Source: a virus
Reading direction: 5' to 3' (one strand)
Length of the DNA: 45,613 nt
Virus record (IMG/VR): IMGVR_UViG_3300027852_000064
Location: 1-45,613 of that record
Shown: piece by piece, positions 4,313 through 19,178 of the stretch
How the letters are laid out: every line of letters begins with the position of its first letter
Numbering within the stretch: position 1 is the stretch's first letter
The notes under the pieces: generated by a model
What the model saw: only the letters and a program-made list of their open reading frames with translations
Told to the model about the DNA's origin: nothing
Databases searched by the model: none
Position numbers and translations under genes: made by a program

Positions 4313-4795
4313 ATGAGAAAACTACTTTTAACGGGAGTAGCTTTTGCTGCTCTCAGTGCTTGCACCAGCCAGACTACGTTGGTGTGTAACCGAGAGGCTC
4401 AAGAGTGGACAAAGTTTGGGACGCAGAAAGATATGTGCCTCAAAGTTCCGAGTATCATCGTCCAAGTACCAGAAGACGATGGTGAAGACCCTTACTCTCC
4501 TGAAACACCAACAGACGATGATCCTGAAACACCGACGGACAATGATCCTGAAGATCCTGAAGATCCTGAAGATCCTGAAGATCCTGAAGATCCTGAAGAT
4601 CCTGAAGATCCTGAAGATCCTGAAGATCCTGAAGATCCTGAAGATCCTGAAGATCCTGAAGATCCTGAAGACGATGACAAAGAGAATAATGGTCATGGTA
4701 ATGGGGACCAAGATGCCCCAGGGAATTCTGGTGACCACAACAACGCCGAAAACTCGGAGCACTCTGGCCAAGGCAATTCAGGCCAGAACAAGTAA
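4313..4795 (+). CDS. Secreted lipoprotein with long Asp-Pro-Glu repeat
   Basis: 160 residues. The N-terminus MRKLLLTGVAFAALSAC is a clear lipoprotein signal with an L-S-A-C lipobox, so Cys17 would be lipid-anchored at the cell envelope. Two imperfect ETPTD units are followed by 14 exact DPE triplets and a tail rich in Asn, Gly, His and Ser. The ribosome site AAGGA lies about eight bases from the ATG. It is the last gene of the plus-strand cassette and is closed by a hairpin terminator. Phage lipoproteins made during infection often block superinfection at the cell surface (known for T5 Llp). That role fits but is not shown; a virion or adhesion role is the alternative. Confidence 0.75.
   Translation: MRKLLLTGVAFAALSACTSQTTLVCNREAQEWTKFGTQKDMCLKVPSIIVQVPEDDGEDPYSPETPTDDDPETPTDNDPEDPEDPEDPEDPEDPEDPEDPEDPEDPEDPEDPEDPEDPEDDDKENNGHGNGDQDAPGNSGDHNNAENSEHSGQGNSGQNK
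4544..4669 (+). repeat. 14 perfect tandem copies of a 9-bp unit (GATCCTGAA)
   Basis: Fourteen uninterrupted copies of GATCCTGAA encode the DPE repeat of the lipoprotein. Each unit is three codons, so gain or loss of units by slippage changes protein length without breaking the frame. Identity at every base, including third positions, indicates recent expansion. Confidence 0.95.
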
Positions 4796-6105: not shown

Positions 6106-6321
6106 CTAAACTTTATGATATGAGCGGTTAGGCTCTTTCTCTATCGCGAGGTCGAGGTCCTCAGCGACGGCTAGAGCAATACGGTGATCGAGCATAATAA
6201 CTATATACTCAACGCCTGGATCTGAATTCTGGATGTTGTCTCGGATTATATTCGGGAATTCTTGACGTCTTATGCAGCCAAGCTCTGTGCTTGTTGAGGC
6301 TAAGTCTAAGCTCTCAGTCAT
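6106..6321 (-). CDS. Small protein between the terminase subunits, unknown
   Basis: 71 residues (MTESLDLASTSTELG...). The ATG at 6321 overlaps the small terminase stop by 8 bases and the stop lies two bases before the large terminase start, so it is translated within the terminase operon. Longer versions starting further upstream would overlap small terminase extensively and are unlikely. The centre 'EYIVIMLDHRIALAVAEDLDLAIEKE' looks like a strand-helix unit. No family recognised. Confidence 0.6.
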   Translation of the reverse strand: MTESLDLASTSTELGCIRRQEFPNIIRDNIQNSDPGVEYIVIMLDHRIALAVAEDLDLAIEKEPNRSYHKV

Positions 6322-6922
6322 CTTCTTCGGATTTTGCATCTTCAGGCTCCTTAATAGGTGTAACGTCAATGATAGGTCGACCGGTATCCTCATCCCACTC
6401 AACATTATCCCAGTCAGGTGGTTCCTGGAAGTGTACTTCAATTTTAGTAGGAACCTTACCGTCACCTCCGCCGATCGACAATCCAACTCCCCCTGATTTC
6501 TTATGCTCAGGCAAGTTACCTGTCATAAGCGTCTCTAGGATACGGTCAGAATGCACAATCTCTGTCAAGACAATTGGCTCAAAGTTTTCATCAAGGACCA
6601 ACATGCCATCCAGGGGGTTCCGTCTGTACATCACCTCTCCTTTATAGATGACGACTTTCTCGACACCCTCAGCACGCCGCTGTGCCATATCGCGTAGATA
6701 ATCCCGATACTCTTCACGAGCTTCAAGCAATGCTTCAGCAAATTCTTCGTCTGAGTTCTTCCAGAGATAGGCGGTTGACGGTGGGCAATTTACCGAACGG
6801 CAAGCAGACCTGAGGGACGGAGCTTTCCGGTAAGCATCTACAATTTGCTGCTTCACAAAAGGGATATCCTCCTTCGTGATGTTGCCCGAAACTTTGATTA
6901 CATTGTCTACTGTACCTGCCAT
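6314..6922 (-). CDS. terS: Terminase small subunit
   Basis: 202 residues from the ATG at 6922 (MAGTVDNV...); a longer start at 6949 has no ribosome site. The N-terminal helix-turn-helix (SLRSACRSVNCPPSTAYLW) is typical of small terminases that recognise the packaging site. A coiled, charged middle (oligomerisation) and an acidic C-terminus (contact with large terminase) follow. The first residues (MAGTV, then VDAY and an A-R-x-V-N helix) resemble the N-terminus of the phosphoesterase at 23044-24696. First gene of the packaging operon. Confidence 0.85.
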   Translation of the reverse strand: MAGTVDNVIKVSGNITKEDIPFVKQQIVDAYRKAPSLRSACRSVNCPPSTAYLWKNSDEEFAEALLEAREEYRDYLRDMAQRRAEGVEKVVIYKGEVMYRRNPLDGMLVLDENFEPIVLTEIVHSDRILETLMTGNLPEHKKSGGVGLSIGGGDGKVPTKIEVHFQEPPDWDNVEWDEDTGRPIIDVTPIKEPEDAKSEEDD

Positions 6923-6982
6923 AGGCCTAACATAATTACTGACCCGCATTTAGCGAGCCAGCATTAATGCTGTGCCAATAGC

Positions 6983-10888: not shown

Positions 10889-11168
10889 AATCTTTCTCCA
10901 CAATACATTTCGCCGTTACAGTGCAAGTCAAGTCTTCGGGGCTAACAGTCATGTTAGACCAATCACCCCCACCAGGGATATGGACCTGGACCTTCGCATC
11001 TAGATAATTCTGATACAGCTCAGGGCGCTCAAGAAGGACTGATAGTTTACACGTATAAGAATGCTCCGTTGTAATCGTGGTTTTACTTGAAACGTCTACA
11101 CCATCTACTTCATCGAATTTGATTTCAGAAAAAGCCTGGCCGGTTATATTACCTGTTTGGTTTGGCAT
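10881..11168 (-). CDS. Hypothetical beta-rich protein
   Basis: About 95 residues (MPNQTGNITGQAFSEIKF...). The ATG at 11168 overlaps the previous stop (TGATG); a GTG three bases earlier is possible. Alternating strands (TTITTEHSYTCKLSVLL; LDAKVQVHIPGGGDW; TCTVTAKCIVEKD) suggest a small beta sandwich. Unknown function. Confidence 0.6.
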   Translation of the reverse strand: MPNQTGNITGQAFSEIKFDEVDGVDVSSKTTITTEHSYTCKLSVLLERPELYQNYLDAKVQVHIPGGGDWSNMTVSPEDLTCTVTAKCIVEKDYA

Positions 11169-11419
11169 CACACCTCCTCCCTGTCAGTGTGCTCTTTTAT
11201 CATACCACGAAAGATACCTGACCACATTGGTGTTTGCCATTGATTAATCTGCTCCCATGGTACCACCACAGTATTGGTAAGGCCTAACCAATACGCTTGG
11301 ATTTCAATGCCAAGTAGCTTAACCTCAGCTTTAAAGTGAACAGAACCCTTTAAGCCACCTGCTTCAGTTAGCCTTACAATCTCAAGCACTGCACTGAGAT
11401 TTTTCATTGTGTCAATCAT
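11168..11419 (-). CDS. First gene of the minus-strand small-gene operon, unknown
   Basis: 83 residues from the ATG at 11419 (MIDTMKNLSAVLEIVRL...), with AGGAG nine bases upstream. The same GGAGAT-A/T-ATTCC spacing precedes the plus-strand gene at 3301. Mixed strand and helix, no domain recognised. It is the first gene after the iteron-rich gene-free region and is coupled to the next by a TGATG overlap. Confidence 0.6.
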   Translation of the reverse strand: MIDTMKNLSAVLEIVRLTEAGGLKGSVHFKAEVKLLGIEIQAYWLGLTNTVVVPWEQINQWQTPMWSGIFRGMIKEHTDREEV

Positions 11420-11490
11420 CGGAATTATCTCCTGGTTGCATTTACCCCTCATCAATATCAGGTTGATTAGAGGGTGAATACCATTGATAA

Positions 11491-11517
11491 GTACGACAGG
11501 TACGACAAGTACAGACC
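11491..11517 (+). repeat. Three tandem 9-bp iterons (GTACGACAR type)
   Basis: GTACGACAG, GTACGACAA and GTACAGACC follow each other without gaps. The same three-unit series, on the other strand, occurs at 14955-14981 upstream of the primase. Confidence 0.75.
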
Positions 11518-11602
11518 AGGCTCATCAACCCACGCTCGCGTTGACCCTCCCATTCCAGACATATGTTGGCTATTTTAGCCTCCTTTTCCCAGCTGCCTAT
11601 TA

Positions 11603-11635
11603 GTACAGAGCAGGTACGGAGCACGTACAGATCAG
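11603..11635 (+). repeat. Three tandem 11-bp iterons (GTACRGAKCAS type)
   Basis: GTACAGAGCAG, GTACGGAGCAC and GTACAGATCAG are directly adjacent. The spacing of 11 bp, about one helix turn, would place a bound protein on the same face of the DNA. An ATACGGAGCAC unit of the same type recurs on the minus strand within 11716-11757. Confidence 0.75.
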
Positions 11636-11723
11636 CCTTTTTCGTCAATTTTACTGACGCTGACGATCGCTTCAACCAAAGAAATAGCTCCTTTTTGAGG
11701 GAAAAGGCTTGTTTCGTACCTGT

Positions 11724-11757
11724 CCGTATGTGCTCCGTATGTATTGAGCACATACGG
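11724..11757. repeat. Perfect 12-bp inverted repeat with 10-base loop
   Basis: CCGTATGTGCTC (11724-11735) and GAGCACATACGG (11746-11757) are exact complements, and the arms contain the iteron core. ATTTTT follows on the plus side, so it could act as a plus-strand terminator, as a cruciform, or as a two-fold binding site. The match of the arms to the neighbouring iterons favours a protein-binding role. Confidence 0.65.
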
Positions 11758-11917
11758 ATTTTTGGCCTTTTCAACCATATTATTAAGGCTTTTTTTAAGG
11801 TAAGAACTCTTTGTACTTATTGTACTTAACTATTTACTAAATTAACCTAATGCGCACGCATCGCACGTTGTCAAAATTCAACAATTATACTATACGATCA
11901 GTACCGGGCATACAGAC

Positions 11918-11943
11918 AAAAAAAGAGGCCCCGAAGAGCCTCT
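11918..11943 (-). terminator. Terminator of the primase/HNH transcript
   Basis: On the minus strand, AGAGGC and GCCTCT pair around an eight-base loop, followed by six T (11923-11918). It lies about 30 bases after the HNH-nuclease stop. Confidence 0.75.
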
Positions 11944-11971
11944 CAATTTGACGCCTAAATGCTCGGCCAGA

Positions 11972-12538
11972 TCAGTCTGCTCTGTCCGCCTCAGTCAGGA
12001 TCATCGCGTCTGCATACTTTGCTGCTTTAACTCGCCGTCTTTGGTTCTCTCTATGTGTGACCAATTCCAGATGATCGTCGGCGAAACATAACCTATTCCC
12101 GCACTTGTGGTCAATCTGCTTACGGTGTGGAATGATGCCATTTTCATTCGACCACCAGACCCGATGTACAGCCATCGTTGCTCCATCAATGGAGACCCTG
12201 CCATATCCGCCACCACGGCCATCACCAGACGTAGATCCCGTCCACTCTCTACAACCTTGGTTGGTGTACCGAACCTGGCTCAACAGACGCTCCCGGATCA
12301 TTTCTCGGCGAGTTAGCTGCTTTTCGACCACCGCGCGCTCACCGGCTCGTCTAAGAGCCAGACGGAGCTGTTCTTGACCAGACAGATGTGCTTGATCTTT
12401 GGTGGCAACGGAAAGCTCTGTCTTAGCAACAGGTGTTAAGTCTGCAGGTTTGTGGCTTTCGTACCTGTGGCCACAGTTTAAGCAGTCACCCATTGCCATC
12501 ATATCCGGGCTGTAGTCATTACACTCACAGAAGCTCAT
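11972..12538 (-). CDS. HNH endonuclease with N-terminal zinc-ribbon-like motif
   Basis: 188 residues. The start at 12538 overlaps the primase stop (ATGA) and has AGAGG upstream. The N-terminus carries C-x-C and C-x-x-C (Cys4, 6, 19, 22), a probable zinc site. The C-terminal half is an HNH_3-type nuclease: GYGRVSIDG, then A-V-H-R, then IDHKCGNRLCFADDHLELV with the central His and Cys pair. Such genes can be homing nucleases or serve in DNA processing; being coupled to the primase suggests a stable phage role rather than a recent intruder. Confidence 0.82.
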   Translation of the reverse strand: MSFCECNDYSPDMMAMGDCLNCGHRYESHKPADLTPVAKTELSVATKDQAHLSGQEQLRLALRRAGERAVVEKQLTRREMIRERLLSQVRYTNQGCREWTGSTSGDGRGGGYGRVSIDGATMAVHRVWWSNENGIIPHRKQIDHKCGNRLCFADDHLELVTHRENQRRRVKAAKYADAMILTEADRAD

Positions 12539-14925
12539 ACCTCTGTCCCCCATTCAACTTCAGCCCCAAGTAGGTGTGACATCTCTGCCCGGCAACGTCC
12601 AAGTGATGGTAACCAAATACCTGGAGCTCGACCATCTGCAGAGACCTTAACGTCATATCTGTCAGAAGAAACAACACACTTCACCTGCTGAGAGATATCC
12701 AACGCAGGACAATATGACGCAACTTCCTTCCAGAAGAACCGGTCGATCGACTTATTCATCGAGCCACTGTTAATGCGATTAGCTTGACAGAACTCATCAA
12801 ACGACTGGCGCACGTCAGAGCGGATCAGTTTCACATCATCCTCAGTCCAATCGTCTTCGTCTTCCATAAGAGGTATGTCGCCGAGGGTTCCGCTCTCAAG
12901 CAAGCTAAACCACCAAGCGCCGACAGGCGGCAAGTTGCGAAGTTTCTGCTCAACCAAAGCCTTAGATACAGGTATCACACCACGAGGAGCCCAATCACCA
13001 ATATCCAGCGCCAACAAATCGTGCAGCATGGCTTTCAGCCCTTGTCGGTCGTCGCCATACATCTCTGCATGGAACTTACTGAAGAATGCCCGGTCCTCCT
13101 TATGTTTGTTAGATACCTCGCCGACAAAGTAACGTCTCTCCCCATCTGCAGTGCCGGCGTCAACAAACCAATCTGAGTTTGAACACATCAACATATGGAT
13201 TTGGTTTAAGCCTGACTTGAGGTCCATGCCTTTCTGCTCATATACCTTATGCTTATCAGTGATCAGAGACTTCAAGGATGACTGTGCTTTGTAGTCCCTA
13301 GGAGCAACAGCTTCATCTGCAAACAGGAAAATACAATCCATTAAGTGCTGGTTGAACTTACCTGTAACATGGTCAGGGCTCGTGACGTGCAATCCGTGGC
13401 GACCGGCAATCGTGACCAATGCCTGACCCAAAGTTGATTTACCAGTACCTTTGTCACCCCGGAAGCATAACGCAACTTCAGGTGGTGTGCCCGGATGCTG
13501 AAACATATACGCAATCCACTTGATGCAGAAGTCATAGCTATCTTCATCACCTGAACACAGAATTTCCTTGATCAGATATTTCATCGTGTCCCAGGTACCA
13601 GGTGCAGGATCCACACCCCAACCAGTCCAGAGGTTCAAATAACCTTTGTGGTTCTGCTCAGGGTCAAAGATCACACCTGACACTGAGCGGCGTTTGCTCC
13701 ATTCGAGCCAGACATCTGCCACAGGAGTTGGTACGACTTCACCTTTCATGTTCTTCTTCTCCACTTTTTTGTTCGCTAATTCTTTGCGAAAATCATCGAA
13801 TGTCTGCACATTCCAATAGTAGCGCTCCATAACCGGGTCTCGCGTCTGGTGCATGATCCGAAACTTACCACCACCCACAGCCCAATATTTTTCGTTCATC
13901 AGAGCCATTGGACCTTTCTTCTCATGCGCCGGACTATCGTCTTGGTCACCTGGGTCGAATTCCATCCCATCAAATTCGTCATCGAAGTCATCTGGATCAA
14001 CCTTTGGCGGAGGCATCGCCGCTGATTTACCTTCGTGCTGTAGAACCATGCCAAGTGTTTTGTGTGTTACCGGCTGGGTTCCATCAGGGGCTTTACGATG
14101 CAAACTATCCCACCGACGTCCGACTATCCAGCTATCGTCGGCATATTCCGGGTCACGTGAACACCATTCTAGCCATTCATCCCGCGCTTCACCGTCTGAG
14201 GCGTGGTGACAAGCCATCATCAGTTTAAGCCAATCAACACCATGTAGATTTGCGCCATTAGAGCCAAAGTCTACCGGGTCCAGGACATCAAGCATCTTAG
14301 CAATGTCCAGGTGTGAGTATTCTCCACCATTACCGCCTGAGTTGTTTGTTTGCGTTGGTCGCTTGATCATCGTCATGAGCTGGTTTGGAGCGTCAGGCGC
14401 GTCCTCAAGGCCAGGATGTTCGAAGGTGTCATCCCAGTAGTATTTGTTTCCGTTCGGGTGGATCGAGCCAGCAGCAACTACCTGTCTGCCTTTCGTCTTG
14501 AACTCCACGCCTTCATATCCGTCAAGGGTATCAATCACCGGAACTTTCGGATCCTTCTTCATATACAGATGGAACCCACCTGAGCCAGTATTGACTTTTG
14601 GATAGTCGGTTGGGTCAAGGTCGAAAGCGTCACAAAGCTCTTGGAATGTGTCACGGTCTTTAGGTGAATTGCGAGGGTCAACATCAATAACCAGTTGGTC
14701 CGCAGTAAGCCGCACGCCCGCATTGTTGTTATCATTAGTCGATTTTTCAATCGTCTCTTTGTTGTTGTAAGGCTTCGTAGTCCAGTCGTTAGAAAGCGGA
14801 CGTTTACCATCTTGTCTGGTTTTATTTTTATGCGTGCTGGTGCTGTTCCACTTGTATAGTGGAATGAGAGTATACCCCTCTTTTGCGTAGATTTTCATCT
14901 CAGTAGGGTCAACAGTCTTCTTCAT
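12535..14925 (-). CDS. Primase-polymerase / SF3 helicase replication protein
   Basis: 796 residues from the ATG at 14925, chosen for GGAG six bases upstream; an in-frame ATG at 14988 lies beyond the iterons and has no ribosome site. The N-terminal prim-pol domain has IDVDPR (Asp81, Asp83), TGSGGFHLY (about 113-121) and an AAGSIHPNG strand. A PriCT-like helical linker (about 230-300) and an acidic stretch follow. The DUF5906-type SF3 helicase has GDKGTGKST (490-498), CIFLFADEA (531-539), a MLMCSNSD segment and GERRYFV. It would unwind and prime at the origin. With no separate polymerase gene seen, its prim-pol domain may matter more than usual. Confidence 0.9.
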   Translation of the reverse strand: MKKTVDPTEMKIYAKEGYTLIPLYKWNSTSTHKNKTRQDGKRPLSNDWTTKPYNNKETIEKSTNDNNNAGVRLTADQLVIDVDPRNSPKDRDTFQELCDAFDLDPTDYPKVNTGSGGFHLYMKKDPKVPVIDTLDGYEGVEFKTKGRQVVAAGSIHPNGNKYYWDDTFEHPGLEDAPDAPNQLMTMIKRPTQTNNSGGNGGEYSHLDIAKMLDVLDPVDFGSNGANLHGVDWLKLMMACHHASDGEARDEWLEWCSRDPEYADDSWIVGRRWDSLHRKAPDGTQPVTHKTLGMVLQHEGKSAAMPPPKVDPDDFDDEFDGMEFDPGDQDDSPAHEKKGPMALMNEKYWAVGGGKFRIMHQTRDPVMERYYWNVQTFDDFRKELANKKVEKKNMKGEVVPTPVADVWLEWSKRRSVSGVIFDPEQNHKGYLNLWTGWGVDPAPGTWDTMKYLIKEILCSGDEDSYDFCIKWIAYMFQHPGTPPEVALCFRGDKGTGKSTLGQALVTIAGRHGLHVTSPDHVTGKFNQHLMDCIFLFADEAVAPRDYKAQSSLKSLITDKHKVYEQKGMDLKSGLNQIHMLMCSNSDWFVDAGTADGERRYFVGEVSNKHKEDRAFFSKFHAEMYGDDRQGLKAMLHDLLALDIGDWAPRGVIPVSKALVEQKLRNLPPVGAWWFSLLESGTLGDIPLMEDEDDWTEDDVKLIRSDVRQSFDEFCQANRINSGSMNKSIDRFFWKEVASYCPALDISQQVKCVVSSDRYDVKVSADGRAPGIWLPSLGRCRAEMSHLLGAEVEWGTEV

Positions 14926-14954
14926 CAGGCACTCCATTCTGTCATATAAATATG

Positions 14955-14981
14955 GTTCTGTATTTGTCGTACTTATCGTAT
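14955..14981 (-). repeat. Three tandem 9-bp iterons upstream of the primase
   Basis: On the minus strand the units read ATACGATAA, GTACGACAA and ATACAGAAC, matching the set at 11491-11517 unit for unit in reverse position on the genome. They lie 30-56 bases upstream of the primase start, where they could act as an operator (autoregulation) or as a second origin element. Confidence 0.7.
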
Positions 14982-15037
14982 ATGTCAATCTAAATCATGC
15001 AACGACCGTCAGTCAACCAATAAGGGATAAATGATGG

Positions 15038-15077
15038 TAGTCACTATTTATGCCCCGGCTTATGCTCTCCTTACTGA
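15038..15077 (+). promoter_or_regulatory. Candidate promoter of the plus-strand replication operon
   Basis: TAGTCA (15038-15043), 17 bases and TATGCT (15061-15066) are followed by CTCCTTACTGA. The TATGCTCTYCKTACTGA block recurs at 19910-19926 before the last genes of the same operon. The promoter lies 31 bases before the start of the first gene and is divergent from the primase. Confidence 0.5.
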
Positions 15078-15100
15078 CACTTAAACAGACACACAGGAGA
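15075..15100 (+). promoter_or_regulatory. Conserved 26-base leader ending in the ribosome site
   Basis: The block from TGACACTTAAACAG to the AGGAGA ribosome site matches 25 of 26 bases with the minus-strand leader at 36640-36615, before the tail chaperone gene. Conservation in two unrelated genes suggests a functional leader, such as a translation enhancer or an RNA-processing site. Confidence 0.6.
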
Positions 15101-15107
15101 TTGCCAA

Positions 15108-15602
15108 ATGGCAAAGATTACGATTGAGTTTGACACCGGTGATGAAAAGGCGAATGATATCCTCGCTGCTTTCGTCGGTGGTACTGGGGGGGCCACAGTG
15201 ACCTCAATGCAGGTTGAGACTGCAGACAACAGCTCTGTAGAAAATACTAAATCAATGCATGACCAGACCCATGACGAAGAGGCTGATGCAGCAGCTGAGA
15301 AGAAAGCTGAAACTGCAGCTAAGCGTAAAGCCGCACGTGAAAAGAAAGCTGAAGCAGAAGCTGCGGCCAAAGCTGAAGCGGAAGCAAAAGAAGCGGCAGA
15401 CGCAGGTCTCGGTGACGACGACGACGAAGCCGAAACAGCTGGCCCAACCCGTGAAGATGTGCGTGCTGCTTTGAAAAAGTATGCCAAGCTTGAAGGTCAG
15501 CCAGCAGCGGTTTCTATCCTGAAAGACGCTGGCGCCTCAACCATGAGTGAGCTGGAAGAAGATAAATTCCAGGAAGTCATCGATGCGGCTTCAGTCGAAT
15601 GA
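15108..15602 (+). CDS. Ala/Glu/Lys-rich coiled protein, first gene of replication operon
   Basis: 164 residues. An ordered start (MAKITIEFDTGDEKANDIL) is followed by a long Ala/Glu/Lys helix (about 60-100) and an acidic Asp run. A compact C-terminal helical motif, 'REDVRAALKKYAKLEGQPA' plus an S-I-L-K-D-A-G segment, recurs at the ends of phage recombination and SSB-associated proteins. No enzymatic residues are seen; a scaffold-like or DNA-replication accessory role is possible. Preceded by AGGAGA. Confidence 0.65.
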   Translation: MAKITIEFDTGDEKANDILAAFVGGTGGATVTSMQVETADNSSVENTKSMHDQTHDEEADAAAEKKAETAAKRKAAREKKAEAEAAAKAEAEAKEAADAGLGDDDDEAETAGPTREDVRAALKKYAKLEGQPAAVSILKDAGASTMSELEEDKFQEVIDAASVE

Positions 15603-18650: not shown

Positions 18651-18904
18651 TGGCCAACATAAAAGAGATCACTGTATCTAGGTCTGTCAGGGTAAATACT
18701 GGCAACTATGAAGGCACAGAACATTTTGTCTCAGCAAAAGCTGAGCTTGATGAGTTTGACGACGAGGCTGATATTTCGTCACAAGTCAGTCAAGTTGTGG
18801 AAAAAGCACTGATGGTGCAGCTAGTCCGAGCTTATAAAGTCCGTGGAAAGAAGATCTCTCCCGAGATAATTGGCAAGCAGCATGGTTTGACGTATGCACC
18901 TTGA
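18650..18904 (+). CDS. Small hypothetical protein, common phage type
   Basis: 84 residues from the ATG at 18650, overlapping the previous stop (TAATG); a longer start at 18599 lies inside the previous gene. The pattern 'KEITVSRSVRVNTGNYEGTE', then acidic strand, then 'VSQVVEKALMVQLV' helix, is frequent in phage recombination operons, where it remains uncharacterised. Likely accessory to the nuclease/SSB module by context. Confidence 0.6.
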   Translation: MANIKEITVSRSVRVNTGNYEGTEHFVSAKAELDEFDDEADISSQVSQVVEKALMVQLVRAYKVRGKKISPEIIGKQHGLTYAP

Positions 18905-19178
18905 AGACGAAACACCAGATCTCGCTGTAGACCTAGCCAACGGGGGTCTCTCAGCCTGGATCAAAACCTTGCGTATAGAGCCATCAGTAGCTACTCCGAT
19001 CCGGTTTTTATACCAAGATTATCAGGCGATGTGCCTGAACGAAGGCTTTCCTGAGGCAGACGTAGCTGACTTTGTTCGCTGGGTTTCTTTAATAGAGGGG
19101 ACAAGTATAATAGAGGGAGGGCATGGTTTACTGCGGAGGGTGGTTCTCGGCGTCATGCCGGGAGGTCATAAGTTATGA
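18894..19178 (+). CDS. Hypothetical protein with possible winged-helix part
   Basis: 94 residues, overlapping the previous gene by 11 bases. The segment 'IRFLYQDYQAMCLNEGFPEADVADFVRWV' (in its two halves) resembles the winged helix at the C-terminus of phage D5-like primases and some regulators (pattern: L-Y-x-x-Y-x-x-x-C-x-x-x-G). A DNA-binding role is possible but weakly supported. Confidence 0.5.
   Translation: MHLEDETPDLAVDLANGGLSAWIKTLRIEPSVATPIRFLYQDYQAMCLNEGFPEADVADFVRWVSLIEGTSIIEGGHGLLRRVVLGVMPGGHKL

Follow-up and report, generated by a model that had tools for sequence, protein, structure and literature searches.

A 516-bp interval (positions 11456-11971) of the 45,613-nucleotide stretch of viral DNA analyzed here (IMG/VR record IMGVR_UViG_3300027852_000064; hereafter, the window) is probably a replication origin, a candidacy strongly supported by comparison with related phages. 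The interval lies 3' of genes for a primase-polymerase/superfamily 3 (SF3)-type helicase (prim-pol) and an HNH endonuclease, and it holds five iteron arrays (A to E) in both orientations, which surround the A/T-richest segment of the window. The window represents part of a siphophage genome, and its kin are Ruegeria phage Tedan (TerL 62% and prim-pol 49% identical) and the Roseobacter RDJL phages (TerL 54-56% identical). A sequence-only reading had proposed an iteron-controlled origin at this place, and the proposal is supported because the same layout recurs 3' of homologous prim-pol genes in many phages, although the units differ. The best reading of its kind would be an iteron rep-ori, like those of P4 alpha and of the Rep proteins of Staphylococcus aureus pathogenicity islands (SaPI), residing in siphophages with diversified iterons. 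The features concerned are as follows.

11891-11917, plus strand: array A, three degenerate 9-bp units (TACGATCAG TACCGGGCA TACAGAC).
11850-11861, no strand: palindrome of alternating purines and pyrimidines, ATGCGCACGCAT, between arrays A and B.
11807-11826, minus strand: array B, two 9-bp units (AGTACAATA AGTACAAAG).
11768-11887, no strand: A/T-richest 120 bp of the whole 45.6-kb window (71% A/T), candidate DNA unwinding element.
11711-11742, minus strand: array C, three direct units (TACGGAGCACA TACGGACAGG TACGAAAC) that overlap an inverted repeat with 13-bp arms (11723-11758).
11603-11635, plus strand: array D, three 11-bp units.
11491-11517, plus strand: array E, three 9-bp units (GTACGACAG GTACGACAA GTACAGACC).
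14955-14982, minus strand: leader iterons, three 9-bp units (TATACGATA AGTACGACA AATACAGAA) in the prim-pol 5' leader.
12535-14925, minus strand: prim-pol/SF3-type helicase, 796 aa, candidate initiator.
12568-12834, minus strand: prim-pol C-terminal winged-helix-like domain (residues ~698-786), candidate reader of the iterons.

The repeats are genuine, lie where listed and exceed chance expectation. Tandem arrays equalling E arose in 0.05% of the shuffles of the interval, and arrays equalling D in 0.7%; a matrix trained on just E and the leader copy recognized 8 sites in the rest of the interval, versus 1.6 expected (P 2e-4). Counts of tandem pairs are weak by themselves (at threshold 4, 16 observed versus a mean of 11 from column-shuffled matrices), and the argument rests on clustering. 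The general iteron type of the window is GTACGACAAG. The three 11-bp units of D were already described in the sequence-only reading, as were two GTACTTA units (11813 and 11822, 9 bp apart), which are two AAGTACAA units on the minus strand. What it had called related units at 11716-11757 resolves into a perfect 13-bp inverted repeat (arms 11723-11735 and 11746-11758, 10-nt loop), the longest perfect hairpin reported in the interval, and the three direct units of C, which are located at 11711-11742; the weaker 9-bp array A is an addition to its list. An exact search for the double unit of the window in 2.9 million viral contigs gave one match (L212), which was taken as a coincidence in an apparently unrelated contig, and a looser GTACGAC pair pattern matched more than 100 stretches.

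The interval had also been described as gene-free and A/T-rich in places. The A/T-richness is confirmed and is located specifically at 11768-11887. Two open reading frames (ORFs) of 110 and 88 aa cross the interval, but neither matched a PHROG family. When the A/T-richest 120 bp of each locus was located without use of the repeats and compared with the previously mapped iteron clusters, it fell 3' of prim-pol in most loci and overlapped the iteron cluster in 12 of 14; the P value under random placement (~2e-18) overstates independence because the loci are related.

In the relatives, a non-coding gap 3' of prim-pol harbors short tandem repeats that run in both orientations and are mostly 9 bp long, and a private 7-9-mer is clustered in this gap in up to 7-16 copies. 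The unit sequences differ among phages, as follows.

RDJL1 and RDJL2: GCTATACAA.
RDJL6: CTGGTCCGA.
Tedan: GCCTTACAA.
RcSimone-Hastad and L172: GTCCGACCT.
L165: GTCCAACCT.
L170: AAGTCCTTA.
L173: TTGTCCCGT.
DLP4 relatives: GCTTAGATG.
L130: CTTTACAAG.

The element is situated 0-7 kb from prim-pol: directly 3' of it in L130 and L176 (close relatives), L131 and the DLP4-type phages, beyond one HNH gene in the window, and 2-7 kb away in the RDJL phages, Tedan and RcSimone-Hastad. In Tedan, RDJL1 and RDJL6, a left-pointing array, a spacer, a right-pointing array, an A/T-rich stretch and a third array follow one another; read in the direction of prim-pol, this is the A-B-C layout of the window, whose array A matches that of RDJL1 and Tedan in position and orientation. 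RDJL1 and RDJL6 have their arrays at the same places and in the same register, with the unit changed from CTATACAAG to CTGGTCCGA, and their alignment is 47% identical in the iteron columns versus 61% in the other columns. In Tedan the whole element is present twice, as diverged copies about 950 bp apart (L123:11586-11794 and L123:12544-12754) in a non-coding gap of 1.46 kb; this recalls the ori plus crr of P4. A manual comparison shows a G....AC..G skeleton common to the units of most relatives; in GTACGACAAG, the GT.CGAC found in RDJL6 is combined with the ACAAG found in both Tedan and RDJL1. The corresponding degenerate pattern, GYNNNACNNG, shows hardly any enrichment in the interval (three sites), and thus the skeleton is a hand comparison and not a detector. 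A clade-specific alignment search for closer relatives found no new close ones.

A tract of alternating purines and pyrimidines, the longest of its locus, accompanies the element in Tedan, RDJL1/2, L130, L165, L172 and L173; it was rejected as a universal feature, being absent in RcSimone-Hastad, L170, L183 and the DLP4-type phages. Several relatives have a second conserved tract, alternating, CG/CA-rich and partly palindromic (CACGTG/GCGCGC), further 3' of the iterons and shortly before the next gene (L176:9607-9640, L130:9623-9650, L131:9732-9750 and, in RDJL1, L125:10844-10862). Many relatives have a motif like ATCAAGGACTTAGG / CAGCGACTTAGG next to their iterons (L127:10371-10410 and other DLP4-type loci, L176:9450-9465, L125:10480-10500), and we could not find a confident counterpart of it in the window.

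Since some pac sites contain direct repeats, and the terminase genes of DLP4 and Donnerlittchen follow the gap, the element might be a pac or end site recognized by the small terminase subunit. This is very improbable: in the window, about 4.5 kb separate TerS (6314-6949) from the interval, and in RDJL1 about 5 kb, the TerS proteins of RDJL1 and RDJL6 are 78% identical though the iterons differ, the iterons recur in the prim-pol leader and not at TerS, and the A/T maximum would be left unexplained.

Prim-pol, the conserved neighbor of the candidate origin, contains AEP Prim-Pol, PriCT_2 and DUF5906 domains (Pfam, PHROGs), and its AlphaFold model has a mean pLDDT of 84. The C-terminal domain is modelled as strand-helix-helix-strand-strand-helix (pLDDT ~88 when modelled separately). 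In Foldseek searches with prim-pol, the C-terminal region (CTR) of NrS-1 polymerase was nearest (E 1e-13), and SaPI5 Rep appeared further down (E 3e-8); the C-terminal domain alone gave weak winged-helix matches in the PDB, the best of which was the RFX winged helix (prob 0.82, E 0.3). Rep proteins of this make-up, such as those of SaPI and Cch2 of the staphylococcal cassette chromosome (SCC), read iterons via the C-terminal domain (PMC7581432, PMC6092414, PMC4234260), and from this kinship it seems rather likely that prim-pol reads the iterons of the window. A phage initiator, most likely through the winged-helix-like domain of prim-pol, would bind GTACGACAAG-type iterons; the SF3-type helicase part, assembled there, would melt the adjoining A/T-rich segment (11768-11887), and the prim-pol part would then prime the first strands for a phage polymerase.

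It is unlikely, though less so than the pac site, that a separate phage or host protein reads the iterons of such an origin and recruits prim-pol, as in the case of lambda O or RSF1010 RepC. The many small early proteins of no known function could include such a reader, the C-terminal fold match is weak, and divergence of the prim-pol C-terminus tracks iteron change uncleanly. On the other hand, all of the cases examined have prim-pol as the conserved neighbor, and the C-terminus is the part with which related AEP/SF3 Rep proteins bind the iterons of their own origins (PMC7581432, PMC4234260). Between RDJL1 and RDJL6, whose iterons differ, prim-pol identity is 87% in the core and 57% in the C-terminus; between RDJL1 and RDJL2, whose iterons are shared, C-terminal identity is 89%. 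More tentatively, prim-pol and its origin may form a specificity-switching system in which the C-terminal domain and the iterons change together and diversify rapidly among siphophages, while the layout (bidirectional arrays, an A/T-rich segment, often an alternating purine-pyrimidine tract, and leader copies for autoregulation) remains fixed; such a system is a possibility that we consider doubtful. If it exists, the origins of related phages would exclude one another within a single host, in the manner of plasmid incompatibility groups.

Several observations weigh against an iteron origin read by prim-pol. The L137 and L141 prim-pols are 96% identical in the core and 69% in the C-terminus, with iterons little changed, and several other RDJL early proteins are as diverged as the prim-pol C-terminus. 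Array A is degenerate, and the units of C and D are spaced 10-11 bp apart. The A/T maxima of RcSimone-Hastad and L183 lie away from the iterons, and the tendency of non-coding DNA, to which the element belongs, toward A/T-richness explains part of the overlap elsewhere. Cumulative GC skew, which the sequence-only reading had suggested as a check, leaves the interval unmarked, with an early-region minimum near 14-14.5 kb in the window, and shows no clear minimum in RDJL1; because the skew follows gene orientation, as it does in the window, it is uninformative and was rejected as evidence for an origin.

In locus L156 (9020-9292), the prim-pol is 60-65% identical to those of the DLP4-type relatives in the core and only 17-23% identical in the C-terminal domain, which suggests that the domain was swapped; the gap 3' of this prim-pol showed no tandem array. 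A small early protein of the window (18894-19178) has a weak, sub-threshold Pfam match (E 0.046) to the winged helix at the Cdc6 C-terminus and is conceivably another candidate origin-binding protein.

The recurrence of array E on the other strand, pointed out in the sequence-only reading, is borne out at 14955-14982: 27 of 33 nt are identical, versus at most 22/33 in 300 dinucleotide shuffles of the interval compared with the leader. That reading had taken the arrays on both sides of the prim-pol and HNH genes together as a candidate origin; the interval retains this role, but the leader copy, which lies directly 3' of a TTGACA (14983-14988), suggests an operator for prim-pol autoregulation, a better fit than a second half of the origin. 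Iterons are also found in the leader of prim-pol or its operon in RcSimone-Hastad, L172 and L130 (two units, 18 bp apart in the last). Prim-pol bound to the leader copy would repress its own gene, and arrays D and E may tie origin firing to the small-gene operon. These leader copies in the window and the three relatives would also suit arrays that are bound by a phage regulator and act solely as operators of the prim-pol and small-gene operons, the interval being a complex promoter region that plays no part in an origin, as would the promoter-like sites flanked by D and E before the small-gene operon and the CtrA-like regulator encoded by the RDJL phages. We regard this explanation as quite improbable, though not to the degree of the pac site, since up to about 20 units in a gap of 0.5-1.5 kb around the A/T-richest segment would be excessive for an operator, the gap remains linked to prim-pol across divergent phages, and a helix-turn-helix regulator was recognized in none of the early proteins scanned. 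A dual role in origin function and autoregulation would be part of the best explanation.

The rep-ori principle is already known. The origins of SaPI and other phage-inducible chromosomal islands (PICIs), of SCC and of pRN1 have been published as lying immediately 3' of rep (PMC6092414, PMC7581432, PMC4234260). The SaPI/PICI pri-rep-ori and SCCmec Cch2 systems resemble the present one in combining an AEP (archaeo-eukaryotic primase) primase with a helicase (fused in SaPI5 Rep, the Foldseek match) and in having iterons that flank an A/T-rich region; in the published systems, the Rep C-terminal domain reads these iterons (PMC6092414, PMC7581432). This situation is different from that of the siphophages, which have mostly 9-bp units and leader copies, with an HNH gene between initiator and element in the window and putative binding by prim-pol. 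Genes for a terminase, a portal and a tail tape measure are present in the window itself, and thus identity as a PICI/SaPI satellite island was rejected in favor of a phage. In P4 alpha, primase and helicase are likewise fused, together with a C-terminal winged helix by which origin repeats are bound (PMC4234260); membership in its family was rejected, because the P4 primase is TOPRIM-type (PMC4234260) whereas the window protein has an AEP Prim-Pol domain, and the iteron sequences also differ. The AEP prim-pol and SF3-type helicase of the window have counterparts in pRN1 ORF904 and in the proposal for Bordetella phage BIP-1, as would its candidate C-terminal winged helix and its candidate origin 3' of the gene; BIP-1-type phages also share PriCT_2 (PMC4234260). 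The pRN1/BIP-1 origins, however, are described as large stem-loops without iterons, and the authors who sought fitting iterons in BIP-1 found none (PMC4234260); a stem-loop origin of this kind (~100 nt) was rejected for the interval, where iterons are present and the longest reported perfect hairpin has a 13-bp stem. The prim-pol of phage NrS-1, of all solved structures the one nearest to the helicase part, starts its primers at the template motifs TTTGGTTA or GTG (PMC8718748); TTTGGTTA was rejected as a mark of the interval, TTTGGTT being scattered over the window in 18 copies.

A full-text literature search on iteron and primase-polymerase phage origins returned nothing, and the papers checked on related Mesyanzhinovviridae mention no origin of replication; as far as we found, there is no earlier description for these phages, which would form a close parallel outside PICIs. 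A simple rule, to locate prim-pol and then look 3' of it for an iteron cluster around the A/T-richest segment, would give candidate origins in many phages, and initiator specificity lends itself to direct testing with natural variants that differ in their iterons, such as RDJL1 and RDJL6 of a single host species.

Further features of the region are as follows.

11972-12553, minus strand: HNH endonuclease gene, between prim-pol and the iteron element.
11923-11944, minus strand: intrinsic terminator of the prim-pol/HNH operon.
11648-11675, minus strand: promoter-like site TTGAAG-N16-TAAAAT, upstream of the small-gene operon (ATG 11422); weak evidence.

No HNH gene is annotated at the equivalent place in Tedan or the RDJL phages, and therefore the HNH gene is possibly a mobile insertion. 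Six promoter-like sites were found, versus 3.8 expected in shuffles, and Rfam gave no match in window positions 11000-15200. Genes for PolA and a helicase are present in the relatives and missing from the window, probably because the sequence is a fragment. Elsewhere, at 4539-4678, a near-perfect 9-bp tandem repeat (GATCCTGAA, about 14 copies) bears no relation to the iterons; it lies within an ORF (4313-4795), where it encodes a short acidic repeat, and the start of this ORF resembles a lipoprotein signal.

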